Positions 5,938 through 31,846 of a stretch of 32,420 nt of DNA are shown in pieces (positions within the stretch are counted from its first letter, which is position 1; every line of letters starts with the position of its first letter). This stretch comes from a bacterium. Its GTDB lineage: Bacteria; ARS69. Below the pieces are notes generated by a model. The model made no database searches, was not told where the DNA came from, and worked only from the letters and a program-made list of their open reading frames with translations. The DNA lies in contig JALGZR010000059.1 in the NCBI GenBank assembly GCA_025774805.1, positions 1-32,420 of the forward strand, read 5' to 3'. The position numbers were made by a program, and so were the translations under genes.

Positions 5938-6432
5938 ATGGACCGGAAGAGGAGCATCGAGCTCTTGAACGACGCCGCCCGAGACGAACTGCAGGCGGTC
6001 CACCAGTACATGTATTTCCACTTCCACCTGGACGACCAGGGCTTCGGGCCGCTGGCCGCGCTCTTCAAGAGGATCGCCATCGAGGAAATGGGCCACGTCG
6101 AGAGGGCGGCGGAACGGATCCTCTTCCTCAACGGCGACGTCGAAATGGAGCCGAAGGGGTCGGTCGAGCCGATCCGGGATCCGGAGGCCATGGTGGCGAA
6201 GGCGGCCGAGATGGAGTGGGAGGCCGTGAAGGACTACAACAAGGCCGCGCAGGAGTGCAGTGCGAACGCGGACGCAGCGTCGCGGCAGATCTTCGAGTCC
6301 CTGATCAGCGACGAGGAGCGCCACTACGATCTGTTCGATCAACAGCTCGAGAACATCAAGCGTTTCGGACACAATTACCTCGCACTCCAGTCGTTCGGAC
6401 GGGCCGAGCCGGGGGCGCCCGAGGCGGACTAG
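5938..6432 (+). CDS. bfr: Bacterioferritin-family iron storage protein
   Basis: The 164-residue protein has the four-helix ferritin fold at the length usual for bacterioferritin. The di-iron ferroxidase ligands are all visible: Glu17 (RDELQAVHQY), Glu50 and His53 (EEMGH), Glu93 (AEMEWEA), and Glu126 with His129 (DEERH). Met51, inside EEMGH, aligns with the methionine that binds haem between subunits in classical bacterioferritins. The segment AERILFLNGDVEME is also typical. It is expected to oxidise Fe(II) and store iron in a cytoplasmic shell. The ribosome site GGAAGGAG lies just upstream of the ATG. No Bfd gene is adjacent. The TAG stop codon is the first triplet of a palindromic repeat element (6429-6611). 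A ferritin-like relative not classed as Bfr remains possible, but the ligand set argues for Bfr. Confidence 0.88.
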   Translation: MDRKRSIELLNDAARDELQAVHQYMYFHFHLDDQGFGPLAALFKRIAIEEMGHVERAAERILFLNGDVEMEPKGSVEPIRDPEAMVAKAAEMEWEAVKDYNKAAQECSANADAASRQIFESLISDEERHYDLFDQQLENIKRFGHNYLALQSFGRAEPGAPEAD

Positions 6433-6611
6433 CCTGCACATCTCACCAGGCTCTGCTGCGGCAGCGGCGAAGCCGCGCCTGGCTTCGTCGTCGTGGCACT
6501 TCCGCCCTGCGACGGGGCTACAGCCCCGCCTCGGGCGAAAGCACCCCATCTCCTCGCCAGACACGGCTATCCTCGAGCCTCGCGACGAGCCTGGTGAGAA
6601 ATGCAGGCTAG
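6429..6611. repeat. Full copy of a CTAG-bounded palindromic repeat element, 183 bp
   Basis: The left end (6429-6453) and right end (6587-6611) are inverted repeats of 25 bases matching at 23. Both outer ends read CTAGCCTGCA inward, and both contain TCTCACCAGG. The inside holds smaller hairpins, for example GCGGC-GAA-GCCGC and CGGGGCT-AC-AGCCCCG. No ORF is present. The TAG at 6430 is the stop codon of the bacterioferritin gene. Related ends occur at 14593, 23507, 23803-23886 and 31824. It resembles a REP/BIME or MITE-like element moved by a transposase encoded elsewhere. Confidence 0.75.
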
Positions 6612-6652
6612 CGACCTCGGGGGCCGGGCCGCGGGCCGTCGGCCCGACGCGA

Positions 6653-6687
6653 AAGGCCCGACCTCGCGTCGAGCGGGATCGGGCCTT
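6653..6687 (-). terminator. Candidate terminator downstream of the DUF6982-like gene
   Basis: AAGGCCCGA (6653-6661) pairs perfectly with TCGGGCCTT (6679-6687) around a 17-base loop. In the minus direction the stem ends CCTTTC, a weak T tail, about 40 bases after the stop codon at 6727. Confidence 0.45.
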
Positions 6688-6726
6688 GGCGGGCGGTGGG
6701 GTGAAGCCGATCCGAGCGCTCTCGGA

Positions 6727-7173
6727 TCACCCCATTCGAATCTTCGCGCGATACGCCTCCGCGGCCTTCTCGGCTTCCTCCCCCTGCAGGATGAGACGGA
6801 TGGCCGCGTGGTACGCGTAGGCGCGCTCGAGGTTCGAGTCCGGGTCCGTAGGGGTGAGGTAGAACCCGCCCTTTCCCGAGGCGAAGGCCGAGGACCATCC
6901 CGCGAGCGCCTCCCCGTCGGCGAACAGGATCCAGATCTTCTTCTCGGGGGTCGTCTTCGTGGTGAAATCCTTCACCTCTTCGTGCGTAGGATCGCCCTCC
7001 AGGGTCTTGATGAAGAAGACCGCCTTGAGTCGATTCGTCTCGATGCAAACGACCGTACCGTCCTCTTTCCGTAGGTGGAAGGACGCGCATCCCGGCTTGA
7101 AGTCCGCCGTTCGCCCCTTGTGGAGTGTCCCGTCCAGGTGGCGCGCTGCCACCAGCTTTCCCAGATTGCTCAT
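6727..7173 (-). CDS. DUF6982-like conserved protein of unknown function
   Basis: I place the start at the ATG at 7173 because a GGGAGG site lies 7 bases upstream and the residues from there (MSNLGKLVAARHLDGTLHKG) begin the conserved part. Upstream in-frame codons give arginine-rich, non-conserved sequence. The 148-residue product has a small beta-rich domain at about 1-65: a KGRTADFKPGCASFHL strand, then TVVCIETNRLKAVFFIKTLEGD. This pattern recalls DUF6982, a PilZ-like or Sm-like beta domain in many Gram-negative genomes. A second part at about 75-130 contains KIWILFADGEALAGW, GFYLTPTDPDSNLERAYAYHAA and a final helix. It is cytoplasmic with no catalytic motif. Function is unknown; regulatory roles have been guessed for similar proteins. 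The gene is divergent from the dCMP deaminase gene. Confidence 0.72.
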   Translation of the reverse strand: MSNLGKLVAARHLDGTLHKGRTADFKPGCASFHLRKEDGTVVCIETNRLKAVFFIKTLEGDPTHEEVKDFTTKTTPEKKIWILFADGEALAGWSSAFASGKGGFYLTPTDPDSNLERAYAYHAAIRLILQGEEAEKAAEAYRAKIRMG

Positions 7174-7343
7174 GATCGGCCTCCCGTTCCGAGCCCCCTC
7201 GGAAGATCGACGCCGGCAGCCTCCCGCTTGAGCTTCCCGCTCGAGCGCAGGAGGCCATCCGGCCGGGGCGCGGCGCCCCGGTACCGCCGTCGGCTCCGAT
7301 CGGTTACCATGCGGGGTCCACCGATCCACAGGAGAGCGCCCCG

Positions 7344-7853
7344 ATGTCGTCCGAGACGCGTACCGCCGCCGACCCCCGGGTGTCCTGGCACGAGTACTTC
7401 ATGGGCATCGCCCACCAGGTCTCGACCCGGGCCACATGCGAGCGCAAGCGGGTGGGGGCCGTGATCGTTCGAGACAAGACCATCCTCTCGACCGGATACA
7501 ACGGATCGATCCGGGGATTGCCCCACTGCACCGACGTGGGCCACATGCTGGAGGACGGTCACTGCGTCCGGACGGTCCACGCCGAGGCGAACGCGATCTG
7601 TCAGGCGGCGCGAAACGGGGTGCGGATCGAAGGAGCCGACATCTACACGACGGCAAGCCCCTGCTGGGGGTGCTTTCGGCTCATCGCGAACTCCTCGATC
7701 CGGCGGGTCTACTACGGGGAGTTCTACCGCGATCGCCGATCCCTGGAGATCGCAAAGGAACTGGGAATGGAGCTGGTCGATCTGAGCGGGCTGATGCGGA
7801 CGCTGGACTCCGGGCAGCCCGAGCCGAGGTCTCCCCAGACGGACCCGGTCTGA
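7344..7853 (+). CDS. Deoxycytidylate (dCMP) deaminase
   Basis: The 169-residue protein is a zinc-dependent cytidine/deoxycytidylate deaminase of ComEB type, the usual size for the family. It converts dCMP to dUMP, feeding thymidylate synthesis. The HAE motif (His79, Glu81) in RTVHAEANAI gives one zinc ligand and the catalytic proton shuttle; PCWGC (Cys107, Cys110) gives the other two zinc ligands. The STGYNGSIRGLPHC segment with a downstream GHC is the typical substrate and second metal region. AGGAGAG precedes the ATG by a suitable distance. The gene ends 4 bases before the convergent ArsA-type gene. Confidence 0.92.
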   Translation: MSSETRTAADPRVSWHEYFMGIAHQVSTRATCERKRVGAVIVRDKTILSTGYNGSIRGLPHCTDVGHMLEDGHCVRTVHAEANAICQAARNGVRIEGADIYTTASPCWGCFRLIANSSIRRVYYGEFYRDRRSLEIAKELGMELVDLSGLMRTLDSGQPEPRSPQTDPV

Positions 7854-7857
7854 CGTC

Positions 7858-9039
7858 TCACCGCTCCTTCCGCTCTCCGAACTCGATCCGGAGCTCTCCG
7901 TTCTCCATGCGGGCGCGCTCCACCTCCCGGCCGTGGAGGACGCGGGGGAGATAGAAGGTGCGGCGGTAGGGGCCGAGAACGACGGAGATTTCACAGTTTC
8001 GATGGGTGAGATCGATCTCGTCTTTCGTCGCGAGGGGCAGCGGCATGATCAGGTCCACTCCGCCGTCCTCGCGGGAGCGCACGTCGAACGTTCTCCCTGC
8101 GTAGAGACGGGTGGCCGGATCGCGGTCCCCGTGAAGGGCCTCCCCGAGCCGGCGCAGGTCGTCGGGCCCCATCACCTCGCGATCGAAAGCAGGAGCCTCG
8201 AGCACGGGCAGGGGGGAAAATGTCTCCTCCACCGTCTTCCGGTGCATCTGCTGCCGCTTGCGCATCTTCCCGAAGTAGCCCCCGGCGGCCTCCTCGGGAA
8301 GCATGCGATTCAACACGACGGCGTCGAGGGAATACCCGAAGAGGTGCAGGTAAGTGAACGTGCGACGCGACTCCTTGATCACGACCGTCTCCGGATTGAC
8401 GACGAGACGAACCGAGGTGACGGTCGGATCGGTGAAGCGGTCGTGGACGGAGTCGAGCTGATGGAAGAGCTCGGCCGCCGCGTCGTACGTCTCCTCCTGC
8501 GGCACGGGGAAGTCGGTGACGGCCTGGACGGCCGGCCGGAGCGCGCGGGCCACGCGGCGATGAATGGGGAAGAGCTTCTCCATCCACCAGCGTCCGACAT
8601 CGGGCAGCGAGAGAAACCGGAGGGACTCGCCCGTCGGAGCGGAGTCGATGACGATGAGATCGTAGTCGTTCGAGCGGAAGTGCCGCCAGACCCAGAGGAA
8701 TCCCGCGACCTCCTCCATCCCGGGGAGCACGCTCATCTCCTCCGCCAGGACGTTGTCCAGGCCGCGCCACCGGAAGAGATCGCGGACGTATCGCTGGAGC
8801 TTTCCCCAGTGCTGCTCCACGGAGTAGTGGACGTCCACCTCCTGGCCATGGAGGTTCGGTCCCAGCTCGACCGGCTCGGGGCCGAGCGGGCGGTCGAACA
8901 CGTCGCCCAGACTGTGGGCGGCGTCCGTGGAGAGGACGAGGGTCCGGGTCCCCCGCTCGGCGGCGCACAGCGCGGTCGCCGCCGCCACGGAGGTCTTCCC
9001 CACACCTCCCTTTCCGGTGAAGAGAAGGATTCGGGGCAA
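7858..9039 (-). CDS. ArsA/Get3-family ATPase with C-terminal HSP20-like domain
   Basis: I choose the TTG at 9039 as start. A GGGGAAG site sits just upstream, and the upstream reading frame overlaps the preceding small gene. The 393-residue protein opens MPRILLFTGKGGVGKTS, with a deviant Walker A (P-loop GKGGVGKT, residues 9-16), then LVLSTDAAHSLGDVF (switch I) and LIVIDSAPTGESLRFLSLP (switch II). The middle is helical, as in bacterial ArsA relatives. The last 75 residues (DLIMPLPLATKDEIDLTHRN to the end) match the HSP20-like beta domain often fused to non-arsenite ArsA proteins. No arsenic genes are nearby and no CxxC dimer motif is seen, so arsenite export is unlikely. A role in handling membrane or client proteins is a family-based guess. 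Stop and start are separated by only 10 bases from the small upstream gene, indicating an operon. Confidence 0.88.
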   Translation of the reverse strand: MPRILLFTGKGGVGKTSVAAATALCAAERGTRTLVLSTDAAHSLGDVFDRPLGPEPVELGPNLHGQEVDVHYSVEQHWGKLQRYVRDLFRWRGLDNVLAEEMSVLPGMEEVAGFLWVWRHFRSNDYDLIVIDSAPTGESLRFLSLPDVGRWWMEKLFPIHRRVARALRPAVQAVTDFPVPQEETYDAAAELFHQLDSVHDRFTDPTVTSVRLVVNPETVVIKESRRTFTYLHLFGYSLDAVVLNRMLPEEAAGGYFGKMRKRQQMHRKTVEETFSPLPVLEAPAFDREVMGPDDLRRLGEALHGDRDPATRLYAGRTFDVRSREDGGVDLIMPLPLATKDEIDLTHRNCEISVVLGPYRRTFYLPRVLHGREVERARMENGELRIEFGERKER

Positions 9040-9049
9040 CGATCTTCCC

Positions 9050-9280
9050 CTACTCGACCTCGACCTTGCGGGGTTCGGCCCTCTTCTCCTCCTGTTCCAA
9101 CCGCTCGATTCCGGTGTCCAGGAGGCTGCGGACGGCCAGGAGGCCCTCGCGGAGCGAGCCACGGGCGTGGTCCGAGAACTTCTCGGGGACGCAGGACCGG
9201 AGCTCGACGGCGAACGCCTCGGCCGCTCGGGCGAGGTGCTCCGTCCAGCGGGGTTCGCGTGATGTCTCGTTCTCAGGCAT
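9050..9280 (-). CDS. Small helical protein encoded directly upstream of the ArsA-type ATPase
   Basis: A 76-residue product from the ATG at 9280 (MPENETSREPRWTEHLARAA). GAGG lies 8 bases upstream, which favours this ATG over the one two codons earlier. The sequence is amphipathic and rich in Glu, Arg and Leu, and should form one or two long helices (EHLARAAEAFAVELRS, SLREGLLAVRSLLDTGIERLEQ) with a charged tail (EKRAEPRKVEVE). No signal peptide or motif is visible. Tight coupling to the ATPase gene suggests a partner or regulator. I do not recognise the family. Confidence 0.68.
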   Translation of the reverse strand: MPENETSREPRWTEHLARAAEAFAVELRSCVPEKFSDHARGSLREGLLAVRSLLDTGIERLEQEEKRAEPRKVEVE

Positions 9281-9428
9281 CGTCATCGCCTCGGCGGGGC
9301 GTCCCGGGCCCCGCTGCATCCAACATAAGAAAGAAGCGGGCGTCGGGCCAGCCCGCGGGCGGTAGGCTCGACCGGCTCGACACCCCCGAAGAGCGGGGGG
9401 ATTCCCCATCCCGGGAACGGACGGGATC

Positions 9429-10226
9429 ATGCCGACCGTGACGTTCCGCTTCTACGAGGAGCTCAACGACTTCCTGCCCCCGGGCCTCCGAAAGCGCGAC
9501 TTCTCCCGGACCTGCGGCTCGGACGCGACGATCAAGCACGCCGTCGAGGCGCTCGGCGTTCCCCACACCGAGGTGGATCTGATCCTGGTCAACGGGAGAT
9601 CGGTCGACTTCTCGTACCGTCCCCGGCCGGGAGACCGCATCAGCGTCTATCCCGAGTTCGAGACTCTGGACGTCACTCCCGTCACGAGACTCCGTCCTTC
9701 GGCCCTCCGCCGGCCGCGGTTCCTCGCGGACGCCCACCTGGGTCGGCTGGCGAAGTACTTGCGCATGCTCGGTTTCGACACCGTCTACCGAAACCCGTTT
9801 CCCGTCGGGGAGATCATCCGAGGAGCCGCGTCCGAGAAACGGGTCGTCCTGACGCGGAGCCGGGCGCTCCTCATGAACCGGTCCATCGATCGCGGCTGCT
9901 TTCTTCGGAGCGGCCATCCCTTGGAGCAGCTTCGGGAGGTCCTCGAACGGCTTCAGCTTCGCTCCGCCGCCCGCCCGCTCACCCGCTGTCTCCGCTGCAA
10001 CGAGCCTCTGACGCCGGCCCCGGGGGGGTCGAGGGTTTCCGCTCGGCCTCGGGGAGGCGGAGAGCCTCCCGGGTCGGTTCGGCGCTGTCCGCGCTGCGCG
10101 CGCCTCTACTGGGAGGGATCCCACTTCCGCCGCATGCAGCGCTTCGTTCGCGTCGTCTTGGAGGGCGGATCGGAAGGCCCGGACGGTTCCAGACGGGTCA
10201 ATTCGCGTCCCGATACCGGTTCTTGA
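9429..10226 (+). CDS. Mut7-C RNase-fold (PIN-like) protein with N-terminal ubiquitin-like domain
   Basis: The 265-residue protein has two recognisable parts. Residues 1-85 are a ubiquitin/MoaD-like beta-grasp domain (MPTVTFRFYEELNDFLPPG, LILVNGRSVDFSYRPRPGDRISVYP). From about 97 the Mut7-C domain begins with RFLADAHLGRLAKYLRMLGFDT, whose Asp is the first acidic PIN-fold residue, followed by the RVVLTRSRALL segment. A zinc ribbon closes the domain, with CLRCNEPL and RRCPRCARLYWEGSHFRRM supplying four cysteines. Mut7-C proteins are related to the exonuclease domain of nematode Mut-7 and are presumed RNases, though bacterial members are uncharacterised. The spacer between the two CxxC pairs is long and rich in Gly/Arg/Pro. 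The 3' end overlaps the convergent beta-helix gene by 29 bases. Confidence 0.88.
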   Translation: MPTVTFRFYEELNDFLPPGLRKRDFSRTCGSDATIKHAVEALGVPHTEVDLILVNGRSVDFSYRPRPGDRISVYPEFETLDVTPVTRLRPSALRRPRFLADAHLGRLAKYLRMLGFDTVYRNPFPVGEIIRGAASEKRVVLTRSRALLMNRSIDRGCFLRSGHPLEQLREVLERLQLRSAARPLTRCLRCNEPLTPAPGGSRVSARPRGGGEPPGSVRRCPRCARLYWEGSHFRRMQRFVRVVLEGGSEGPDGSRRVNSRPDTGS

Positions 10227-11268
10227 TCTCCGCCCAGGTCGAGGGATCGACGGCAACCGCGGCGCACCCCTCTCCGCCGGCACCGATGAGCGTCGCGCAC
10301 GGGCTCTGATCGGGGAGACAGGGCGAGTTCGCGGCGAGAGTGTAGTCCCCGCCGTTGACGGGAGCGTTGGCGCACGATTCCGGATCGCAGAAGAGAGGAT
10401 CTCCGAAGCACTGCGGACCGTCGAAAGTCACCGTGCCCGCCCCCTCGATTCCCGTGGAGTCCACAGCGCAACAGGTGAGCGTGACCTGGTCACAGGCGAT
10501 CTCCATGAGGATCTCGTTCCCCGCGGCCGTCGCGCAATTCCCCCACACGATGCACCGTTCGACGGTGGCGGTCGTGAAGAACTGGCCGCGAATTCCCGCG
10601 CCCCGATCCGCCGCGTTCGCCGAGATCGTGCACTCGCGGAGGGTCGGCTCGCATTGGTCCATCAGGTAGATGCCGCCCCCGTTGCCGGTGATGACGCACC
10701 GCTCGAGGCAGGGGTCGCACTCCGCCTGGCAGAGCACCCCTCGCCCTTCATTCCCCGCGATGGTCGATCCTTGAATGGTCGGGGAGCCGCCGGCCTGGCA
10801 CAGCACCCCGTGTCCGACACCCTCCACGACGATGCAGTCCCGGATCGTCGGCGCCGCTTGCCGGCAGTAGATCCCGGAGTCGAGCGCGTTGCGGATCTCG
10901 AGGCCTTGCACGACCGAGCTGGCGTCCTCTCCGCTGAGAAAGGAGATCCCGGACGAGGTTCCGCCGCAGTCGATCGTCGTCACCCCCGGCCCGCTCTCGG
11001 ACCGGAGCGTCACCGCCTTCCCCGAGAAGTCGATGTTGCAGTTTCCGGCCCCGGTGTACGTTCCCGCGCCGACCAGAACGGTGTCGCCGGCGGCCGCGGA
11101 ATCGATTCCGGCTTGGATCGTGGCGGCGTCGCCGCCCCCGTCGTCGGTGACCAGCCAGGTGCGGGCGGACGCCGGGGCTCCGGCCAGGAGGACGAGAATG
11201 GTCGTCGAGAGGCAGTACTGCGCAATCCTCCCTCGATCGAGGCGAAAGCCGCGGGGCGGCGGAGACAT
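10198..11268 (-). CDS. Secreted right-handed parallel beta-helix protein with a C-terminal STW-x-x-IK motif
   Basis: The 356-residue protein has a signal peptide (hydrophobic stretch STTILVLLAGAPASA, cleavage near ASA-RTW). The start of the mature part, ATIQAGIDSAAAGDTVLVGAGTYTG, is the classic opening of pectate-lyase-like beta-helices in surface proteins. Rungs follow at about residues 110-260, with repeated Gly-Ile/Val-x-Cys patterns (SGIYCRQAAPTIRDC, HGVLCQAGGSPTIQGS, RGVLCQAECDPCLERC). Many cysteines probably stack or bridge along the helix. The tail around 280-330 (GDPLFCDPESC, GGDYTLAANSPC) is the usual end of such domains. The last residues, STWAEIKNRYRDAN, resemble the C-termini of the three paralogues at 26-28.5 kb. 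No catalytic residues are evident; binding or surface roles are likely. Confidence 0.82.
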   Translation of the reverse strand: MSPPPRGFRLDRGRIAQYCLSTTILVLLAGAPASARTWLVTDDGGGDAATIQAGIDSAAAGDTVLVGAGTYTGAGNCNIDFSGKAVTLRSESGPGVTTIDCGGTSSGISFLSGEDASSVVQGLEIRNALDSGIYCRQAAPTIRDCIVVEGVGHGVLCQAGGSPTIQGSTIAGNEGRGVLCQAECDPCLERCVITGNGGGIYLMDQCEPTLRECTISANAADRGAGIRGQFFTTATVERCIVWGNCATAAGNEILMEIACDQVTLTCCAVDSTGIEGAGTVTFDGPQCFGDPLFCDPESCANAPVNGGDYTLAANSPCLPDQSPCATLIGAGGEGCAAVAVDPSTWAEIKNRYRDAN

Positions 11269-11310
11269 CGGACCCCTCCGTTTCTGCAGAATCGCTCCAG
11301 GTTACTATTC

Positions 11311-11340
11311 AGGATACTCCTCACCGTTGGACCGATTCAA
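11311..11340 (-). promoter_or_regulatory. Candidate promoter of the beta-helix protein gene
   Basis: On the minus strand TTGAAT (11335-11340) lies 18 bases before TATCCT (11311-11316). The leader would be about 37 bases and contains a GGAGGGG ribosome site close to the ATG at 11268. Confidence 0.4.
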
Positions 11341-11468
11341 GAGCCGGAAGTCCTGTACGCCTCGCGGGGTCCGTGGAGTCGCGTGGAACGGGGCTCCCGC
11401 CGTCCCGCCGGGGCGCCGTACCCTCGGCGTGCCGTCCGTCCCGCTTCCGCTCCGCCGGGAATGCAGCA

Positions 11469-11492
11469 GGGGCGGCTCTCGCGAGCCGCCCC
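11469..11492 (-). terminator. Strong hairpin downstream of the DinB-like gene
   Basis: GGGGCGGCTC (11469-11478) and GAGCCGCCCC (11483-11492) form a perfect 10-bp stem with loop TCGC, 37 bases after the stop codon at 11529. No T-run follows in the minus direction (TGCTGCATT), so termination efficiency is uncertain. Confidence 0.5.
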
Positions 11493-11528
11493 CGAGAATT
11501 CGAACCGGATCGGAGCTCGAGACACGGG

Positions 11529-13774: not shown

Positions 13775-14596
13775 ATGGTGCCCACGGCGCGAAAGAGTTG
13801 GGGTCCACCCCCTCTGCCTCGCGAGTACGGCGCGTGGGCCATGCTTCTGATTCCCCTCGCGCTCGGCTCTCTGGCCGCCCGCGCCGTGTCCGCCTCCGCG
13901 CTTCTGATCCTCCCGGCCACGGCCCTGCTCTTTCTCGGTCGCTTTGCCGCGATCCCGGGCGGAACGCGGACCCGTTCGAGCGCGGTCGGAGGAGCCACCC
14001 CCGAGATGCGACGCCTCCTCTGGACGGGTGTCTATCTCGGGGCGAGCGTGCTCGGTCTCGGTCTCGCCGTATGGCTCGCCCCCGCCTCCCGTCGGACCGA
14101 GGCGCTCTCACTCGTCTTCCTGATCGGCGTCCTCGGAGCGGCCAACGCCGGGCTCGTCCTGTCGGGCAAGGGACGGACCCTCGGGGCGGAGAGCTTCGCG
14201 ATGGCCGCCCTGGCGACGACCGCATCTCTCGTGATGGTCCTCGTGGGCGAGCCTCTGGACGGGCGAACGATCGGGATCGGATTGATGTGTCTCTGTTACT
14301 TCCTGTCGAGCATCGCGTTCGTGAGGGCGTTTCGCGTTCTCGGCGAGGGGCGGGCCCGACGCTCCGTGATCACCGCCTGTCTCGGAGTGCACGTACTTCT
14401 CGCGGGATCTTTGATCGTGCTCTGGAGGATCGGCTGGCTTCCGGTCGGCCTTCTCTTCGCATTCGTGCCCGTGCTCGGCCGAACGGCGTGGGGGTTGGCC
14501 CGGCCCGCGCCGAACGTCCGCGCGCTCGGCTGGCGGGAGCTCGTCGTGGCCGCGACGTTTCTGATCATCGCGGGCACCACCTTCCTCGCGAGCTAG
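13775..14596 (+). CDS. YwiC-like integral membrane protein
   Basis: The 273-residue protein opens with PPPLPREYGAWAMLLIPLALG, the signature P-R-E-Y/H-G-A-W of the YwiC-like family, and has eight or so hydrophobic segments over its length. Conserved polar spots such as RFAAIPGG and CYFLSSIAFVRAFR lie between helices, a layout similar to UbiA-like prenyltransferases, but the DxxxD motifs of active UbiA enzymes are absent. Function is unknown; the protein sits in the inner membrane. GAGGAG lies 6 bases before the ATG. The TAG stop codon is part of a repeat end (14593-14617), so the last residues (GTTFLAS) may have been set by a repeat insertion. Confidence 0.82.
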   Translation: MVPTARKSWGPPPLPREYGAWAMLLIPLALGSLAARAVSASALLILPATALLFLGRFAAIPGGTRTRSSAVGGATPEMRRLLWTGVYLGASVLGLGLAVWLAPASRRTEALSLVFLIGVLGAANAGLVLSGKGRTLGAESFAMAALATTASLVMVLVGEPLDGRTIGIGLMCLCYFLSSIAFVRAFRVLGEGRARRSVITACLGVHVLLAGSLIVLWRIGWLPVGLLFAFVPVLGRTAWGLARPAPNVRALGWRELVVAATFLIIAGTTFLAS

Positions 14597-14617
14597 CCCG
14601 CGCTTCTCACCGGTCTC
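14593..14617 (+). repeat. Half copy of the CTAG-bounded repeat
   Basis: Begins CTAGCCCGCG and continues TTCTCACCGGTCTC, matching the left end of the element at 6429 with a few substitutions and the copy at 23803 in its GGTCTC extension. TAG at 14594 is the stop codon of the YwiC-like gene. I find no clear right end within 200 bases. Confidence 0.6.
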
Positions 14618-20978: not shown

Positions 20979-23510
20979 GTGAGTCCGTCTCCGCCCCGTA
21001 CCCCCGAGGAACCGAACGAATCCGGAAGGTCGCCCGGAACCGAGCCCCAGGCCATCGAGCCCCGGCCACTCGACCTCACGTCTCCCCAGTTCACTGCCCG
21101 CGGCGTTCTCACGGGCATGCTCCTGGCCATGATCCTGTCCACCTGCAACATCTACACCGGCCTCAAGATCGGTTGGGGCCTCAACATGTCGATCACGGCC
21201 GCGCTCGTGAGCTTCGGCTTCTGGAAGATCCTCGAGAAGACGATTCGGACGCGGGAGTGGGGGATTCTGGAGAACAACATCAACCAGACGGCCTGCTCCT
21301 CCGGGGCGGCGGTGTCCTCGGCCGGACTCGTGGCCCCGATTCCCGCCCTCGCGATGATCACGGGGCAGACCCTCGGCTGGCCCTATCTCGCACTCTGGGT
21401 ATTCAGCGTCTGTCTGGTCGGAATCACGGTCGCCATCACGCTCCGAAGACAGATGCTGATCGAGGAGAAACTGCCGTTCGCCTCGGGCATCGCGTCCGCA
21501 GAGACGCTCAAGGAGATGTACGCCCACGGCGGGGAGGCCCTGAAGCGGGTGAAGATGCTCGCGGGCTCCGGGCTCATCGCCGCGTTCGTGAAGGTCATGA
21601 CGGACGTCACCCGATGGGTCCCCGTCGCTTTCCCCTTCGGGGGCGCGCTCCGCGGTGTGCCGATGTCTCAGCTCACGTTCCGTTTCGACACGAATTTTCT
21701 GATGTACGGCGTCGGTGCGCTCATCGGAATCCGCGCCTGTATCTCCCTTCTGATCGGCGCTGTGCTCGCCTGGTCCATCGTTGCCCCCCATATGCTCCTC
21801 AACGGAAAGATCCGCCTCGAGACCTCGGAGACGCTCGCCGTACTACCGTCTGAAGTCGAGCTCGAGGCGGCGCCCGAGGGATACGCGACCTACGACGCCC
21901 AGCGCGGTCTCCTCAAGTTCCAGGGACAGATGACGGTGGAGGAGCGGGATCACCTGCTCGCCAAGAGCGACGACCCCCGGTACCGCGAGGCCGTCCATCG
22001 ACTCTGGATGCGCTCCGATCGAAACGCCGCGGCGCCGGCCGATGCCGCCCTGTGGACCACGACGCGGCCGCTGGAGTTTCGGGAGCCGGTCGGCCGGATC
22101 CCGCTGGCGTTCAATCTCCCGCGTCACCTCACGAGCTCGATCCGGATCGACCGGGAGGCGGAAACACTCGTCGTCTTCGGAGCGCTGCCGGAGGAGGCGC
22201 GCGCGAAGGTCGAGGATCTGATCGCCGAGACGGAGCAAGGTGATCCGAAGCACGGCGAGGCGATGGCCCGCCTCCGCACCGCTCTCGATGCGCTCCACGC
22301 GCGATCGAACACCTCGTTGCTCGAGGGCGGACAGACCGAGCTCGTCTTCGGGGACGGACAGGTGGTCTACGACGACGAGTCGAAGACCCTTCGGATCGCC
22401 GGGGTTCTTCCGGCCGGGAGCACGATCCTCGACGAGGTCGTCGGGCGGCTCGGCCTCTCGCCCGACGCGCTCGGTTCCCTGGCCGACGATACGCGATTCC
22501 GACCCGTCGTCCCCGGCTTCCGCGGGCTCGTGACCTGGCTTCTCTGGCCCGGCGTCACGATGATGGTCGTCGCCTCTCTCGCGTCGTTCGCCTTCTCGTG
22601 GCGCTCGATTCTCGCGTCCTTCACCGGGCGCGGCGGGGGCGGGGAACAGAAGGCCGACACGGGAGAGGTCACGCGGACTTGGTTCGTCGTCGCCATCATC
22701 GCCGCGCTCCTGCTGTCGGTCACGCTCCAGGTCTCGCTCTTCGCGATCGTATGGTGGACGGCGGTCGTCGGAGTGCTCGTGACGTTCCTGCTCGCCATCG
22801 TGGCGGCCCGCGTCTCGGGAGAGACGAACATCACTCCGGTGGGAGCCATGGGAAAGGTCACGCAGCTCATGTTCGGGGTGATTGCGCCGAGCCAGCCCGC
22901 ACCGAATCTCATGGCGGCGAACGTCACGGGGGGGGCGTCGAGCCAGTGCGCCGACCTCCTGCACGATCTCAAGTGCGGTTGGCTTCTCGGGGCCTCACCC
23001 CGACTCCAGACCCTCGCGCAGATCTGCGGGGCGTTCGCGGGTGCCATGGCCGGCTCGTTCGTCTACCTCGTGCTGTTTCCGAGGCCGGCCGATCAGCTCA
23101 TGAGCAACGAGTGGCCCGCCCCGGCGGTCGCGACGTGGAAGGCGGTGGCCGAGCTCTTCCAGGTCGGATTCCGGGCGATCCCCGAGGGGACGCCGACGGC
23201 CATGGCCATCGCGGCGATCGCGGCCCTCGTGCTCGTCTTCGTCGAGAAGCTGACCCCGGCGAAGTACCGCAAGTTCACGCTCTCTCCCGCGAGCATCGGA
23301 CTCGCGTTCGTCGTTCACGCCCACTACAGCATCACCATGTTCATCGGGGCGGTGATCGGTCTGATCCTCGCGAGGACCCGCGGGAAGTGGACGGCGGCCT
23401 ACCTGGTCGTGATCTGCGCGGGAATCATCGCCGGCGAGAGCCTCACCGGCGTCGGGGTGGCGTTCTCGAAGATCGATTTCGCGACGATCCTGGAGCAGAT
23501 CCTGGGCTAG
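20979..23510 (+). CDS. OPT-family oligopeptide/metal-chelate transporter with a large soluble insert
   Basis: The 843-residue protein starts at GTG (CGGAG about 8 bases upstream). It has a proline-rich cytoplasmic tail, then TARGVLTGMLLAMILSTCNIYTGLKIGWGLNMS, typical of the first OPT helices. NNINQTACSSGAAVSSAGLVAPIPAL and EKLPFASGIASAETLKEMY are further family signatures. The second membrane half begins near residue 515 and includes GETNITPVGAMGKVTQLMFG and PAPNLMAANVTGGASSQCADLLHDLK. OPT proteins are inner-membrane, proton-coupled importers of peptides or metal-siderophore compounds. Residues about 275-512 are a hydrophilic insert without helices long enough for the membrane; it contains three related segments (starting near 303, 387 and 460), described in the findings. 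The TAG stop codon opens a short repeat match. A small gene follows 50 bases later. Confidence 0.9.
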   Translation: MSPSPPRTPEEPNESGRSPGTEPQAIEPRPLDLTSPQFTARGVLTGMLLAMILSTCNIYTGLKIGWGLNMSITAALVSFGFWKILEKTIRTREWGILENNINQTACSSGAAVSSAGLVAPIPALAMITGQTLGWPYLALWVFSVCLVGITVAITLRRQMLIEEKLPFASGIASAETLKEMYAHGGEALKRVKMLAGSGLIAAFVKVMTDVTRWVPVAFPFGGALRGVPMSQLTFRFDTNFLMYGVGALIGIRACISLLIGAVLAWSIVAPHMLLNGKIRLETSETLAVLPSEVELEAAPEGYATYDAQRGLLKFQGQMTVEERDHLLAKSDDPRYREAVHRLWMRSDRNAAAPADAALWTTTRPLEFREPVGRIPLAFNLPRHLTSSIRIDREAETLVVFGALPEEARAKVEDLIAETEQGDPKHGEAMARLRTALDALHARSNTSLLEGGQTELVFGDGQVVYDDESKTLRIAGVLPAGSTILDEVVGRLGLSPDALGSLADDTRFRPVVPGFRGLVTWLLWPGVTMMVVASLASFAFSWRSILASFTGRGGGGEQKADTGEVTRTWFVVAIIAALLLSVTLQVSLFAIVWWTAVVGVLVTFLLAIVAARVSGETNITPVGAMGKVTQLMFGVIAPSQPAPNLMAANVTGGASSQCADLLHDLKCGWLLGASPRLQTLAQICGAFAGAMAGSFVYLVLFPRPADQLMSNEWPAPAVATWKAVAELFQVGFRAIPEGTPTAMAIAAIAALVLVFVEKLTPAKYRKFTLSPASIGLAFVVHAHYSITMFIGAVIGLILARTRGKWTAAYLVVICAGIIAGESLTGVGVAFSKIDFATILEQILG

Positions 23511-23516
23511 CCTGCA
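23507..23516 (+). repeat. Short remnant of the CTAG-bounded repeat at the OPT stop codon
   Basis: CTAGCCTGCA is identical to the outer 10 bases of the element at 6429, then similarity ends. TAG at 23508 is the stop codon of the OPT gene. A ten-base match alone is weak; its position at a stop codon, as in three other copies, is what supports it. Confidence 0.4.
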
Positions 23517-23802: not shown

Positions 23803-23886
23803 CCGGCCTGCATTCCTCACCGGTCTCCGCTGCGGCCGTGGCTCGCCGATGGCCTCGCCACGAGCCGGGTGAGAGATGCGGGCCGG
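23803..23886. repeat. Short complete copy of the inverted repeat element, 84 bp
   Basis: The left end starts CCGGCCTGCATTCCTCACC; the right end, read on the minus strand, starts CCGGCCCGCATCTCTCACC. The two ends differ at only a few places, and both match the element at 6429 apart from the outermost CTAG, changed here to CCGG. The inside contains TGCGGCCGTGGC and GCCTCGCCACGAG, which can pair further. This copy lies between two genes, not at a stop codon. Confidence 0.65.
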
Positions 23887-25946: not shown

Positions 25947-25979
25947 GAGCGGCTCGAGCGAAGTCCGGTGAAAGGTGAG

Positions 25980-26010
25980 GCGGGGGCGGTTCCTGGGGGA
26001 TCGCCCCCGC
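25980..26010 (+). terminator. Hairpin terminator candidate after the cold-shock gene
   Basis: GCGGGGGCG (25980-25988) and CGCCCCCGC (26002-26010) form a perfect 9-bp stem with a 13-base loop, 33 bases after the stop. The following bases (TCCCATTGCC) are only weakly T-rich. Confidence 0.5.
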
Positions 26011-26101
26011 TCCCATTGCCCTCGAAGGGGGCCGGTGCCGGCCCGCATCGTTCACGGGGCCGGCTCGGGGGGCGGCCTGCGAGGCCGAGCCCTGCCTCAG
26101 C

Positions 26102-26740: not shown

Positions 26741-26803
26741 GGGGCGGCCTCCGGAGATGTGGTCGGCGGACGTGCCGGACGGCGAAGAGCCGAGCACTCT
26801 ACT

Positions 26804-26812
26804 ATTATAGCA
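26804..26812 (-). promoter_or_regulatory. Extended -10 promoter of paralogue 1
   Basis: On the minus strand TGC-TATAAT (hexamer at 26804-26809). No TTGACA-like -35 is found at 16-18 bases. The leader is about 57 bases. Confidence 0.5.
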
Positions 26813-26857
26813 GCCTGCCTGGACCCTCCACGAGACCGGGACAAGACCACGAAGAAA

Positions 26858-26887
26858 AGCGGTGTCTCAGAGCTCTGAGACACCGCT
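26858..26887 (-). terminator. Palindromic intrinsic terminator after paralogue 2
   Basis: A perfect 30-base palindrome with no spacer (half-site AGCGGTGTCTCAGAG). In the minus direction it is followed by TTTCTTC, about 67 bases past the stop of paralogue 2. An almost identical copy lies at 27784-27815. Confidence 0.75.
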
Positions 26888-26953
26888 CGATGGTGACCCG
26901 GCGAGTGGATCCCGGGGGAGGGCCTCCCGATCCGGGATACGGAGACGCTCAGA

Positions 26954-27598
26954 TCAACGGTACAGCGCCTTGATCGTGCTCCAGGTCGAACGTTCCGTCG
27001 CGACCGGCACATCAACGTTGAACGAGCCGGTGGTGATGGCGAGGACGATCCCGGTCTCCGGATCGGTCACGCTGCACTCGAACGTGCCCGCGATCTTCGA
27101 AACATCGAGATCCGTGAACGTCACGGTACCGGACGTCGAGCCGTACTTGCCCGAGGCCTCGATCGAGAGAAGTTCGAGCGACCAGTTCGTCTTGTACAGA
27201 TCCGAGGGCGGAGCCCAATCCACGGCGTCGTCGACGAACGCGAAGACGGCGACGGTCCCGTCCAGCGGGTACGAGCCGACCGTGATCGGGTCGGAGGGAT
27301 CGCTCACGACGATTACACCGCCGTCGGTGTAGTTCAATCCATCATCCGTCGCTCCGACGATGGTGGCGTAGTGCACGCCGTCGAGAGCGTAGGTCAAGGC
27401 GGCCGTTCCCTCGTTGGGGGGATCGTGGGACAAGACGCCGTCCGAACTGAAGTGGCCGGTGACGGGGCCGGGCGGCACTTGCGTGTAGTCGAAGTCCATG
27501 GTCCCGCCATTGAGCAGGATGTCCGGTCCGGGCCCGTCAGCGAACGCCGGAAAGGAGAGAAGGAGCAGAGCGATTGCGCTAGTAGTCATCTTCTTCAT
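26954..27598 (-). CDS. Secreted paralogue 2 of three, beta-rich, with C-terminal STW-x-x-IK motif
   Basis: The start is the ATG at 27598, giving 214 residues with signal peptide MKKMTTSAIALLLLSFPAFA and mature start DGPGPDILLNGGTMDFDYTQ. It is clearly closer to paralogue 3 than to paralogue 1: FDYTQVPPGPVTGHFS, HDPPNEGTAALTYALDGVHY, NYTDGGVIVVSDPSDPITVG, VFAFVDDAVDWAPPSDLYK, YGSTSGTVTFTDLDVSKIAG, TFECSVTDPETGIVLAITTG. It contains a single cysteine, in TFECSV. The end is ERSTWSTIKALYR. The 5' leader is unusual in holding four tandem 13-base repeats (27674-27725). The protein should be exported; whether it is released, surface-held or periplasmic is not shown. Confidence 0.82.
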   Translation of the reverse strand: MKKMTTSAIALLLLSFPAFADGPGPDILLNGGTMDFDYTQVPPGPVTGHFSSDGVLSHDPPNEGTAALTYALDGVHYATIVGATDDGLNYTDGGVIVVSDPSDPITVGSYPLDGTVAVFAFVDDAVDWAPPSDLYKTNWSLELLSIEASGKYGSTSGTVTFTDLDVSKIAGTFECSVTDPETGIVLAITTGSFNVDVPVATERSTWSTIKALYR

Positions 27599-27673
27599 CG
27601 AGAAACCTCCGGAGGCCAGGGATGCAGGGACTGGATGTACTTGGCTGCAATGCGCCGAGCACCACGTCATCAT

Positions 27674-27725
27674 GTCGGATCGTGCCAGCGGGTCATGCCA
27701 GCAGATCGTGCCCGCAGGTCATGCC
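27674..27725 (-). repeat. Four tandem 13-bp repeats in the leader of paralogue 2
   Basis: Read on the minus strand, the units are GGCATGACCTGCG, GGCACGATCTGCT, GGCATGACCCGCT and GGCACGATCCGAC, alternating at two positions (GCATGAC versus GCACGAT). They fill most of the predicted 5' UTR between the -10 at 27739-27744 and the ATG at 27598. No equivalent is seen in the leaders of paralogues 1 and 3. Confidence 0.8.
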
Positions 27726-27738
27726 AATCCACCGGGTC

Positions 27739-27747
27739 ATTATACCA
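27739..27747 (-). promoter_or_regulatory. Extended -10 promoter of paralogue 2
   Basis: On the minus strand TGG-TATAAT (hexamer at 27739-27744), a consensus extended -10. No recognisable -35 exists. Transcription from about 27732 gives a leader of about 134 bases that includes the tandem repeats. Confidence 0.55.
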
Positions 27748-27783
27748 TAACCACTCCCCCGGGCCGTCCCCAGAACCATGAAA

Positions 27784-27815
27784 AAGCGGTGTCTCAGAGC
27801 TCTGAGACACCGCTT
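27784..27815 (-). terminator. Palindromic intrinsic terminator after paralogue 3
   Basis: A perfect 32-base palindrome (half-site AAGCGGTGTCTCAGAG). In the minus direction the stem runs into a five-T stretch, 68 bases after the stop of paralogue 3. It is the best intrinsic terminator in the window and insulates the promoter of paralogue 2 just downstream. Confidence 0.82.
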
Positions 27816-27882
27816 CGGGGCAGCCCGGAGGGGGAGCCCCGACGGGAGGGACATCCCGATCCGGATAGGGAACCGCTTCAGA

Positions 27883-28527
27883 TCAACGGTACAGCGCCTT
27901 GATCGTGCTCCAGGTCGAACGTTCCGTCGCGATCACCCCATCCGCGTTGAAGGTACCCGAGGTGATCGCAAGGGTGATCCCGGACTCCTGATCGGTCACG
28001 GTACACTCGAAGGTCCCCGCGATCTTCGAATCGTTGAGATCCGTGAACGTCACGGTACCGGACGTCGAGCCGTACTTGCCCGCGGCATCGATCCCGAGCA
28101 GCTCCTCCGTCCAGTTCGCCTTGAACAGATCCGGAGGAGGGGCCCAATCCACGGCGTCGTCGATGAACGCGAAGATGCCGACGGTTCCGTCCAGATCATA
28201 GGAGCCGACCGCGATCGGGTCGTCGGGATCGCTCACGACGATCACCCCGCCGTCAGTGTAGTTCGCTCCGTCCTCCAACGCGCCCACGACCGTTGCGTAG
28301 TAGGTGCCGTCGAGCAAATAGGTCGTGCCAGCAACTCCCTCGTTGGGGGGATCGTGGACCAAGATCCCCTTCGCACTGAACTGACCGTTGACGGGACCTG
28401 GCGGGACTTGCGTGTATTCGAAGGTCATCGTCCCGCCATTGATCATGATGTCCGGTTCAGGTCCGTCGGCGAAAGACGGAATGGAGAGAAGAAGGAAAGC
28501 GATTGCGGTAGTAGCCATCATCTTCAT
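27883..28527 (-). CDS. Secreted paralogue 3 of three, beta-rich, with C-terminal STW-x-x-IK motif
   Basis: 214 residues with signal peptide MKMMATTAIAFLLLSIPSFA. The mature protein begins DGPEPDIMINGGTMTFEYTQ and follows paralogue 2 closely, with PPGPVNGQFSAKGILVHDPP, NYTDGGVIVVSDPDDPIAVG, IFAFIDDAVDWAPPPDLFK, YGSTSGTVTFTDLNDSKIAG and TFECTVTDQESGITLAITSG. The end ERSTWSTIKALYR is identical to that of paralogue 2. Conserved acidic and aromatic spots (NYTDGG, DDAVDW) across the three copies suggest a shared binding surface; no catalytic motif is recognised. GGAGG precedes the ATG, and an extended -10 promoter lies 84 bases upstream. The array probably arose by duplication of a roughly 925-bp unit including promoter and terminator. 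Confidence 0.82.
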   Translation of the reverse strand: MKMMATTAIAFLLLSIPSFADGPEPDIMINGGTMTFEYTQVPPGPVNGQFSAKGILVHDPPNEGVAGTTYLLDGTYYATVVGALEDGANYTDGGVIVVSDPDDPIAVGSYDLDGTVGIFAFIDDAVDWAPPPDLFKANWTEELLGIDAAGKYGSTSGTVTFTDLNDSKIAGTFECTVTDQESGITLAITSGTFNADGVIATERSTWSTIKALYR

Positions 28528-28610
28528 CGGGAAGCCTCCTGATGGTGCAGTGGCTCATCGTCTCTGTCGTCGTCCCTGGCTGCGCAGCACAGACACAGAG
28601 AGGTACAGGC

Positions 28611-28619
28611 AGTATATCA
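28611..28619 (-). promoter_or_regulatory. Extended -10 promoter of paralogue 3
   Basis: On the minus strand TGA-TATACT (hexamer 28611-28616). A T-rich stretch (TTTTTT) lies 17 bases upstream, but it is not a good -35. The leader is about 77 bases. Confidence 0.45.
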
Positions 28620-29062
28620 AAGAGGAGAGGCTCAAAAAAGGCCCCTGTGGAGGCAACTTTTTGGCGCGGATTCGGGGGCCTCCGTGGAGGTGGCCGAGCC
28701 CCGGCTCGGGCCCGGTCCGGGGGGCACCGGGAGGGGCAGGGTCGGCCGGAAGGGTCTCCGGGGTGGGGACCCTGGCAAAATCCGACAAAAAACAAGAAAA
28801 AGCGGTACTCCAGACTGGGCTCCGCCGCGCCCTGCCGCCGATACGGGTCTGCGAGGGCCCGCTTCTTCCCGTTCGCCCCCGACCGGGCTTCGGCTACTTC
28901 GACAAAGCCCCGAGAGAGCCGCGATCGGGAGAGGAGAGGGCGGGAGGACGGGAGGAATCGCGTGGGGGCGTGACCGGATCGAGACGACCAGCCGCTCCTC
29001 GCACCGGCCGCGGGGGGCGCGGACGGGAGTGTCGGATTCTCCCGGCCGGCGTCCAGCCCGGC
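28620..29062. other. 443-bp intergenic region without a supported gene
   Basis: Long open frames cross this stretch on both strands, but they are Arg/Gly/Pro-rich and lack ribosome sites. It holds a hairpin CCGAGCC-CC-GGCTCGG (28694-28709) and the terminator-like structure at 28787-28825. Otherwise I see nothing. Confidence 0.45.
28787..28825 (-). terminator. Imperfect hairpin with T-runs, possible terminator of the second STAS gene
   Basis: On the minus strand GCGG (28822-28825) pairs with CCGC (28802-28805), with an inner CCAG-T-CTGG stem. Five Ts and then six Ts follow. The start of the T tail (CCGCTTTTTC) is the same as in the terminator at 27784-27815. It lies about 240 bases after the STAS stop codon, an unusually long distance. 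Confidence 0.35.
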
Positions 29063-29413
29063 CTACGCCGTCGAGGCCTGAATGGCGGAGATCGCCGAGT
29101 TGACGGAGTCGTGAACTTCGAAGAGGACGTTGAGCTTCGTGATTCCGAGCAGGCTCAGGATGCGCTGGTTCACGTTGCAGATCCTGATCCTCCCACCGGC
29201 CTTCTGATAGGCCACGTTCGAGGCGACCAGGATGCCGATTCCCGTACTGGACAGCCACTTCACCTTGGCCATGTCGATCACGAGGTTGAGCTTCTTCTGC
29301 TCGGCGAGCTCGGCGATCATCTCCTTGAGGCGATAGTTCTCCGGACCTCCGTACATCTCGCCGGAAACGGTCAGAATCGGAATGCCGTCCATTTCCTTCG
29401 TCACGATCTTCAT
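29063..29413 (-). CDS. Second STAS-domain anti-sigma-factor antagonist
   Basis: The 116-residue protein is a complete STAS domain. Residues 43-60, NLVIDMAKVKWLSSTGIG, carry the core; Ser56 aligns with the Ser57 of the other STAS protein at 12272-12616 and with the phosphorylated serine region of SpoIIAA/RsbV. The Asp normally before the serine is Ser here. The rest (ILVASNVAYQKAGGRIRICN, SLLGITKLNVLFEVHDSVN) is canonical. It is probably dephosphorylated by a SpoIIE phosphatase and binds a kinase/anti-sigma partner not encoded here. A GGAAGG site precedes the ATG. A possible -10 (TATGAT on the minus strand at 29492-29497) lies about 80 bases upstream, next to the start region of the divergent EAL gene. 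Confidence 0.9.
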   Translation of the reverse strand: MKIVTKEMDGIPILTVSGEMYGGPENYRLKEMIAELAEQKKLNLVIDMAKVKWLSSTGIGILVASNVAYQKAGGRIRICNVNQRILSLLGITKLNVLFEVHDSVNSAISAIQASTA

Positions 29414-29652
29414 GGCACCTTCCCGTTCGGTCGCCCCGCTCTCCGGGCCGGAGACTCGAGGGGGGCCAGGGTGCTGCGCGGCTGGGCCCGAATCATAGGC
29501 GATTCGGCGGGATAGGAAAAGTGCGCGATCCTGACCTCGGCCTCCGTCCCCGGATCGATCTCCCCCACGGGGCGTCTCTAAGGTGCTCGGGAGGGGGGGA
29601 CGATACCCGGAGGGGAGGTCGACCTGCCGGGGGCCTCCGGAGGTCGTCGCTT

Positions 29653-31827
29653 TTGTCTCAGCACACCGATGGGATCGGATCCGCTCCGCCCGGGTCGCCG
29701 TCGGCTCGGCCCGTCGTGTTGATCGCCTCCGGCTCCGACGACTCGACCCGGGAGATCGCGGCGGAGCTGTCCCGACTCGGAATCGACGCTCGATCGACGG
29801 CCTGGAGCGATCTGGTTCGCGACGCGGAGACGATCGACGCGGATGGGGTGATCGTGGATGTCGGGAGCCGCATCCCGGACGCGAACGACCTCGCCCGGAT
29901 CGCCGCCGCCGTGCCGACCGTCGTGATGTCCGACGACCTCGACCCCGACGCGACCCTCGCGGTCCTGCGCACCGGAGTCGCGGACGTTCTCCCCCGACTT
30001 CGCCACGGGCCGCTGCTGGCGGAGCGTCTCCGGCGCCTCCTCCACCCGTGGAGGGGCGTGGGGAGCCTACGGCGCGGGACCCCGAGGGTTCGAGAGGCTC
30101 ATCGCGCGGCCGAGATGATCACCTGGATTTGGGATCGGGCCGGGGGACGGCTCTCCTGGGAAGAGGGAGCGGAGAAGGTTCTCGGCCTCTCGGGAAGGCC
30201 GCTTCCGACGTGTCCCCGGCTCTTCTTCCGTCGGGTCTGCGAGGAGGATCGCCGTCGCGTCCATCGGGCGGTGCTGCGGGCCGAGGCCCTCGACGAGCCC
30301 CTGATCCAGGCGTTCCGCCTGATCGACGGGAAGGGCGGATTGTGTTCCGTGGAGGTTCGCGCGGACCGGGTCCTGGACGGGCAGGGCCGGCTGCTCCGCT
30401 GGTGCGGGACTCTCCGTCGGAAGCCCGAGGGTCGCTTCGAGACGTCCTTCGGGGCGCCTGCCCCCGAGATCGACGAGCTCACCGGAGTCGCCACGCTGGC
30501 CCTCTTCCGTCCGCAGATCCGCCGGGCCGCCTCCCGGGCTCGCCGCGAGGGCCGGATGATCGCGGTCGTCCTCCTGGACCTCGATCGCTTCGGGCAGATC
30601 AACGAGCTCCACGGTCACGAGGCCGGGGACCGGATCTTGCGGCAGGTCGCCGAACGTCTCACGAGGTCCGTGCGGGACTCCGACTCGATCGGAAGGGTGG
30701 TGCGCCGCCTCGGCTACGAGCGGCGAAGGGTGTCGCGCCTCGGGGGAGACAAGTTCGTCGTTCTGCTCGAGGGAATCAGCAAGGCGCGGGAAGCCGCCCT
30801 CGTGGTGCAGAGAATCCTTAGTCGACTGGCGAATCCGTTGCGGATCGGTGATACGACGGTCTCGCTCTCGGCTCGAGCCGGAGTCAGTCTCTACCCCTCC
30901 GACGGGCTCGACGCCTCGGAGCTGCTGCGATGCGCCGAGGCGGCGATCCAACGCGCCGAGCATCCCGGGGTCTCGAAACGCATCCGTTTCTTCTCCAAGG
31001 AGGCGGCACTCCGGCACCGACGCGACATCGACCTGGAGGAGAGGCTGCGGGTGGCGGCCGAGGCGGGCACGTTCCGGATCGCCTACCAGCCCAAAGTCTC
31101 TCTTCCCAGGGGGGAACCCATCGGGCTCGAGGCCCTGCTCCGTTTCGATCATCCGGAACACGGTCCCGTCTCTCCGTTGACCGTCATCGAGATCGCGGAG
31201 CGGACCGGGATCATCCACGAGCTCGGGAGCGCGATCTTCCGGAGGGTGTGTCGGGACGCCGAACGGATTCGAGAGCAGACCGGGGTGGGGACGCGGCTGT
31301 TCACGAATTTCTCTCCGCGCCAGCTCGAGAGTGAGGACTGGAGTGACCGCGTCGGTCGAATTCTCGAGGAAACGGGGGTGGATCCGAATCTCGTGGGAAT
31401 CGAGATCACCGAGTCCGTGCTCGTCGAGGATCGCGCCCCACTGACGTGTGCACTCGAGAAACTCGCCGATCAGGGAGTGGAGATCTCCCTGGACGACTTC
31501 GGCACGGGGTACTCTCACCTCGGCTACTTGACGCGGCTGCCTCTCCACGAGATCAAGATCGATCGGTCCTTCGTCGTGGGACTGACGGACATGCGGCCCG
31601 GCAGTCAGGAGGTGGCGGCTCTGATGGTCATCTTGGGTCGGAGTCTCGGGATCCGGGTCGTCGCCGAGGGAGTGGAGACGGAAGGTCAGATCAACCTTCT
31701 CCAGGCCATGGGATGCCGGGCCATCCAGGGCTTCTACTTCTCGCGTCCGCAACCGCTCGAGCACTTTTTCGACGGCGTTCGCGACCGGAGGATCGCGCCC
31801 GCCGGCGCGACGGCCCCCGCCGTCTAG
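29653..31827 (+). CDS. Receiver-like/PAS/GGDEF/EAL protein; probable cyclic-di-GMP phosphodiesterase
   Basis: I favour the TTG at 29653, which has GGAGG 9 bases upstream; a GTG at 29521 would add 44 residues of Arg/Gly-rich sequence without a good ribosome site. The 724-residue protein has a receiver-like domain (about 19-120, without a clear phospho-Asp pattern) and a PAS domain (about 145-250, ITWIWDRAGGRLSWEEGAEK). A GGDEF domain (about 265-435) follows, with signature GGDKF (364-368). An EAL domain (about 450-705) ends the protein. The EAL motif EALLRF (Glu493), TNFSPRQL, EITES, DDFGTG (614-619), KIDRSF and EGVETEGQ are present, so hydrolysis of c-di-GMP to pGpG is likely. Lys in place of Glu in GGDEF, plus an insert before it (RVVRRLGYERRRVS), argues against cyclase activity. 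No membrane segment is seen. The TAG stop codon lies in a repeat end. Confidence 0.9.
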   Translation: MSQHTDGIGSAPPGSPSARPVVLIASGSDDSTREIAAELSRLGIDARSTAWSDLVRDAETIDADGVIVDVGSRIPDANDLARIAAAVPTVVMSDDLDPDATLAVLRTGVADVLPRLRHGPLLAERLRRLLHPWRGVGSLRRGTPRVREAHRAAEMITWIWDRAGGRLSWEEGAEKVLGLSGRPLPTCPRLFFRRVCEEDRRRVHRAVLRAEALDEPLIQAFRLIDGKGGLCSVEVRADRVLDGQGRLLRWCGTLRRKPEGRFETSFGAPAPEIDELTGVATLALFRPQIRRAASRARREGRMIAVVLLDLDRFGQINELHGHEAGDRILRQVAERLTRSVRDSDSIGRVVRRLGYERRRVSRLGGDKFVVLLEGISKAREAALVVQRILSRLANPLRIGDTTVSLSARAGVSLYPSDGLDASELLRCAEAAIQRAEHPGVSKRIRFFSKEAALRHRRDIDLEERLRVAAEAGTFRIAYQPKVSLPRGEPIGLEALLRFDHPEHGPVSPLTVIEIAERTGIIHELGSAIFRRVCRDAERIREQTGVGTRLFTNFSPRQLESEDWSDRVGRILEETGVDPNLVGIEITESVLVEDRAPLTCALEKLADQGVEISLDDFGTGYSHLGYLTRLPLHEIKIDRSFVVGLTDMRPGSQEVAALMVILGRSLGIRVVAEGVETEGQINLLQAMGCRAIQGFYFSRPQPLEHFFDGVRDRRIAPAGATAPAV

Positions 31828-31846
31828 CCTGCATTTCCCACCGGGT
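31824..31846 (+). repeat. Half copy of the CTAG-bounded repeat at the EAL gene stop codon
   Basis: CTAGCCTGCA followed by TTTCCCACCGGGT, one base off the consensus TTTCTCACC. TAG at 31825 is the stop codon of the EAL gene. No matching right end is found before the next gene. Confidence 0.6.

Follow-up and report, generated by a model that had tools for sequence, protein, structure and literature searches.

The dispersed inverted repeats of the DNA analysed here, a bacterial stretch of 32,420 nucleotides (the window), very probably belong to a MITE family that is moved in trans by an IS1380-family transposase and is targeted to CTAG, and the coincidence of their ends with stop codons would follow from that target. 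The evidence comes from the copies in the window, from their relatives in the rest of the host genome and from complete transposons with the same ends in other genomes.

Copies of the element in the window

The five copies listed in an earlier reading made from the sequence alone (hereafter the sequence-only reading) were all found again as described. A complete MITE lies at 6429-6611 on the forward strand, i.e. 183 bp if the CTAG at either side is counted in, with its ends at 6433-6447 and, in reverse, at 6593-6607. It has inverted arms of 25 nt with 92 % complementarity and is 95.6 % identical to the genome consensus. Of its two flanking CTAG tetramers (6429-6432 and 6608-6611), the former holds the TAG stop codon of a ferritin/bacterioferritin-like gene (5938-6432). 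Half elements are found on the same strand at 14593-14617, where the left half with one end only is left, and at 31824-31846; the stop codon of a YwiC-like gene (13775-14596) falls within the CTAG at 14593-14596 of the first, and that of a PAS-GGDEF-EAL gene (29521-31827) within the CTAG at 31824-31827 of the second. At 23507-23516 (forward strand), the outer 10 bp of an element end are present, CTAGCCTGCA, and the OPT transporter gene (20979-23510) ends within the CTAG at 23507-23510. This 10-bp copy, the weakest of the five, is probably a remnant of an element end, judging from the motif CTAGCCYGCA, which occurs solo five times in a 1.163-Mb sample of the host genome compared with an expected 0.3.

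The remaining copy (23803-23886, forward strand) is, as reported, complete at 84 bp and represents a short, deleted form, but it has CCGG in place of CTAG on either side and does not lie at a stop codon. The TAG is thus the stop of the upstream gene in all four window copies that bear a CTAG, which agrees with the four genes (bacterioferritin, YwiC-like, OPT and EAL) named before.

The proteins encoded by these genes have normal C-termini where this can be judged. The OPT profile match reaches position 622 of 623 and the EAL match 236 of 236, while the bacterioferritin has 164 aa, with around 155-180 aa in most of its solved relatives. Since the gene-side copy of CTAG restores the stop codon, the C-terminus need not change upon insertion, and the completeness of the domains in the occupied genes fits an unchanged stop. 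Homologues in the host's family were too few or too distant for a comparison of orthologue C-termini, and an orthologue comparison at locus L137 of another genome was useless, the query carrying an element itself.

Abundance and size forms in the host genome

A genome-wide search with CCTGCATTTCTCACC, allowing up to three mismatches, gave 625 matches compared with 46 for the reversed pattern, and the 19-mer end CTAGCCTGCATTTCTCACC, allowing up to two mismatches, gave 290 matches compared with none for the reversed control. Therefore, the window copies are not due to chance, and the search with the ends that had been suggested for this repeat shows the family to be abundant. For further statistics we used a host sample of 1.163 Mb, i.e. 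24 contigs including the window, which were picked for holding exact matches; genes were called with a simple home-made codon-usage model, and all host statistics given below rest on those calls. The sample contains 140 elements, of which 90 have kept both their ends, and from these figures we estimate around 350-380 elements for the whole host genome. Lengths peak at 180-185 bp; elements of about 43-111 bp also occur and have the look of internal deletions. Of the full-length copies, 35 in all, most share 84-99 % identity with the consensus, and two fall below this range (77 and 55 %). In keeping with a MITE, the element is short, has many copies and carries no transposase gene of its own.

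A good many matches, among them those at L058, L104, L127 and L157, face a contig end at a distance of 80-140 bp, suggesting that the elements probably break short-read assemblies.

The element ends are those of IS1380-type transposons

The same end was found in many phyla outside the host, with similar element lengths recurring at about 184, 222 and 248 bp. A second size class of around 248 bp, with the same ends and another palindromic core, is present in several genomes (L079, L083, L133, L162 and L169).

At L175 and L183, two loci of Bryobacterales, the element ends enclose 1.73 kb with an open frame of 492 aa, which matches PF13701 with an E-value of 7e-147 (489.5 bits, cut-off 34.7). This profile, DDE_Tnp_1_4, describes the DDE domain of IS1380 transposases and so identifies the type of the partner IS. 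An annotated IS1380-family transposase encoded on Pseudomonas putida and Stutzerimonas plasmids is 57 % identical to the Bryobacterales protein, and the IS on both plasmids, although located at different sites, reads CTAG-CCCGCATTTCTCAC...GTGAGAAATGCGGG-CTAG. A similar IS1380-family IS with CTAG on either side was found on a Rhizobium plasmid. The terminal inverted repeats of the small elements are those of the IS1380-type transposons at L183, L257 and L258, as would be expected of MITEs derived from a full transposon type. Considering that these ends are common to complete IS1380-type elements, we assign the family to IS1380 and not to the REP/RAYT systems.

In the host genome itself (284 contigs, 96 % complete), no complete IS1380 transposase was found. 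The only trace of this family is a fragment of 131 aa at C17:1747-2085 (L173), which was rejected as a partner as it has no matching ends nearby. The element is also absent from four genomes of the same family. The enzyme behind the host copies may therefore have been lost, may be unassembled or may have come from outside.

CTAG as a probable duplicated target outside the repeat

The IS at L183 sits inside a copy of a small element that belongs to that Bryobacterales genome. Intact copies of this element (L112, L152 and L175) read GCGCCTAGTCCTGACGG, with a single CTAG, while L183 reads GCGC-CTAG-[IS]-CTAG-TCCTGACGG, i.e. one CTAG was turned into two. Moreover, the IS copy at L175, which is 97.4 % identical to that at L183, has a direct repeat of CTAA on either side, and one copy of IS1380A has TCAA on either side. 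Flanks of CTAA and TCAA point to a 4-bp duplication rather than to ends that carry CTAG. On the strength of these comparisons, in which the duplication is shown for the IS, we regard CTAG as a 4-bp target duplication outside the repeat proper. The sequence-only reading had counted CTAG as part of the shared end, which these sites contradict; its proposal of a MITE-like element that targets CTAG, on the other hand, is supported by the CTAG flanks and by the duplication made by the matching IS.

For the host elements, the sign of a duplication is that neighbours standing back to back share one CTAG, at C8:21990-21993 and C80:32469-32472, suggesting that each insertion offers a target to the next. 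Both flanks read CTAG in 27 paired host elements, and five flank pairs are exactly inverted, mostly CTGG..CCAG. The host flanks as such were uninformative for telling a duplication from a terminal repeat, CTAG being palindromic and its variants mostly resembling decay. No empty site was found for a host element, and the flanks of a Thioalkalivibrio copy had no contiguous match in relatives of the genus.

Stop codons and occupancy of CTAG

In the host sample, a gene stop falls exactly at the TAG of the element end for 52 of 219 ends, while every other stop offset within 60 bp of an element end occurs at most twice; 51 of these 52 stops are TAG. CTAG is scarce, as the sequence-only reading had supposed, with 291 occurrences compared with 901 expected under a second-order Markov model, and gene stops make up roughly half of its noncoding occurrences. 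CTAGs free of an element comprise 63 gene stops, 71 other noncoding sites and 50 genic ones, while elements keeping at least one CTAG number 37 at stops, 36 at other noncoding sites and 5 in genes. The element thus occupies 37 % of the CTAGs at stops (37/100), 34 % of the other noncoding ones (36/107) and 9 % of the genic ones; noncoding and genic sites differ (P=1e-4), and no preference for stops over other noncoding CTAGs was seen (Fisher P=0.66). Since occupancy is similar at both kinds of noncoding site, the apparent stop rule would come down to the choice of target together with the loss of insertions that do harm, without recognition of stop codons, and the special rule of insertion at stops proposed earlier has to be given up. 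The under-representation in genes is most simply explained by the loss of genic insertions.

Neither end is preferred on the gene side at stops (17 vs 19). Where one end of an element is at a stop (28 cases), this end reads CTAG or TTAG in 25, while the free end reads CTAG in 11, as expected if selection holds the stop only and lets the free end drift. At loci of other phyla, a frame of at least 150 open codons is closed by 21 % of the CTAG element ends that face inwards, compared with 11 % of element-free CTAGs and 5 % in the outward-facing control. An offset-based count for these phyla (41/208) was discarded as biased, a TAG being nearly always present at offset 0.

TAG accounts for 32 % of the called stops of the host sample (274/867) despite 68 % G+C, and 51 of these 274 TAG stops bear an element. 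In two called genes the stop lies 40 bp into an element, which would fit a lost TAG and a short extension of the C-terminus encoded by the element. Upstream of 6882 at L137, an open frame runs for about 55 codons through the preceding element copy, up to the CTAG that this copy has in common with the next one; the peptide is encoded at many other places of the same genome (matches throughout G060 and G082), suggesting that the elements can extend frames once the stop is lost.

Proposed mechanism

We propose that an IS1380-family transposase (DDE, PF13701) would recognise the end CCYGCATNTCTCACC and act in trans, inserting the element into CTAG, less often into CTAA and related tetramers, with duplication of the 4 bp. 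CTAG is rare in this genome of 68 % G+C, and in about half of its noncoding occurrences a codon ending in C meets a TAG stop, so that many insertions would hit stop codons. Such an insertion would leave CTAG on both sides, so that the gene keeps its stop and the event is near-neutral, while insertions in genes would mostly be lost. Later on, the gene-side TAG would be held by selection on the stop, while the free copy would be left to decay into CTGG, CCAG or CCGG. That an IS1380-type enzyme made the host copies, and that genic insertions were removed by selection, is what we infer from the ends and the occupancies described above.

A conserved fold-back and alternative explanations

An end-to-end alignment was obtained for 15 full-length elements, taken from the host and other genomes; they have in common CTRCTGCG close to one end, TCGCNACG close to the other and a hairpin in the centre. 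Of the 44 pairs in the predicted fold-back, 23 show compensated changes, and the covariation score is 0.347, compared with 0.151 in shuffles and 0.05-0.10 when slid. Compensated changes and covariation together indicate that the predicted fold is kept while the sequence changes. The core of the element is common to several phyla. The conservation may stem from the needs of transposition, from exchange between the arms or from an RNA function. No Rfam family matched at its gathering score, and two sub-threshold matches (E=0.072 and 0.26) were at chance level. In addition, convergent genes flank 36 of the 117 intergenic elements, compared with 87 of 487 intergenic regions of at least 40 bp.

Both observations would suit a mobile stop with a 3' hairpin, i.e. 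an element whose fold-back terminates the transcript or protects the mRNA and whose copies are kept as a portable gene end. Such a role could add to the preferred explanation, but we consider it unlikely, given that stops are not preferred among noncoding CTAGs and that either end may face the gene; moreover, a fold would be seen in any fold-back MITE, and an excess in convergent regions would equally arise if promoters and operons are avoided. It is tempting to speculate one step further, with a little less confidence still, that the structured core common to several phyla is itself kept as a portable gene end: the CTAG target would seat the element on TAG stops, the protein would remain unchanged and the fold-back would become a 3' hairpin taken into use by the host.

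A MITE of an IS5-like element would share both the target and the 4-bp duplication with MITEPsy1 (PMC3189936), but the MITEPsy1 ends, GGAAGGTCTGAAAAAGCC, are unlike those found here, and the matching ends enclose IS1380 transposases, making this origin improbable. Even less credible is a REP/BIME family moved by a RAYT (Y1 transposase), which the sequence-only reading had entertained and which a short, palindromic, dispersed and mostly intergenic element would suit. The ends and the 4-bp duplication are of the IS1380 type, and PF01797, the RAYT profile, has no match in the host genome, while the control genomes give one; the transposons found with these ends are the IS1380-type IS of other genomes. 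Finally, ordinary and unrelated 3' hairpins that resemble each other by chance, without conserved ends, might be suspected from the three partial copies among the five of the window, but can practically be dismissed in view of the 290 end matches against an empty control and the 35 full-length copies mostly close to their consensus.

Significance and comparison with known systems

The preferred explanation, a CTAG-targeted MITE family moved by an IS1380-type enzyme, offers a simple reason for a transposon to sit exactly on the stops of unrelated genes: its target is a rare palindrome containing TAG, and the duplication of this target restores the stop. Other elements targeting CTAG or YTAR should obey the same logic. 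In the host, many genes receive a fold-back at their 3' end, while the IS1380 family gains a MITE family of high copy number whose single core can be recognised in several phyla.

The type member of the family, IS1380A of Acetobacter pasteurianus, shares with the element the inner end TCTCAC and, probably, the duplication of a 4-bp palindromic target; its transposase is 48 % identical to that of the IS bearing the element's ends. In contrast, the 4-bp flanks of IS1380A are mostly TCGA or TCAA, while the element uses CTAG, and the element, unlike IS1380, is only about 182 bp long and without a transposase. Closer in their target are the IS of Pseudomonas putida pKF715A and Stutzerimonas zhaodongensis, which have the outer end in common with the element and CTAG on both sides at two sites; unlike the element, they are autonomous and around 1.66 kb long, and the likeness is one of ends and flanks.

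Among short elements, REP/BIME sequences with their RAYT are likewise dispersed and mostly intergenic palindromes, but the present host has no RAYT and the ends are those of a DDE-type IS. The Chunjie MITEs of Geobacter uraniireducens resemble the element by description in being intergenic, 178-235 bp long and present in many partial copies (PMC10969869); the same review of prokaryotic MITEs makes no mention of IS1380, CTAG or stop codons. Searches of the literature text gave no paper with the end sequences and nothing relevant on IS1380 with CTAG or stop codons. The available excerpt on MITEPsy1 of Pseudomonas syringae (PMC3189936) describes a MITE that duplicates 4 nt at CTAG or YTAA, and reports no link to stop codons. 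MITEPsy1 resembles the element in its CTAG target and probably in the 4-nt duplication, and differs from it in being 100 nt long, in its other ends, in having six copies and in probably being derived from ISPsy2, possibly of the IS5 type. MITEs that duplicate CTAG are already known and, set against the published papers searched, we file the element described here as a further MITE family, of the IS1380 type.
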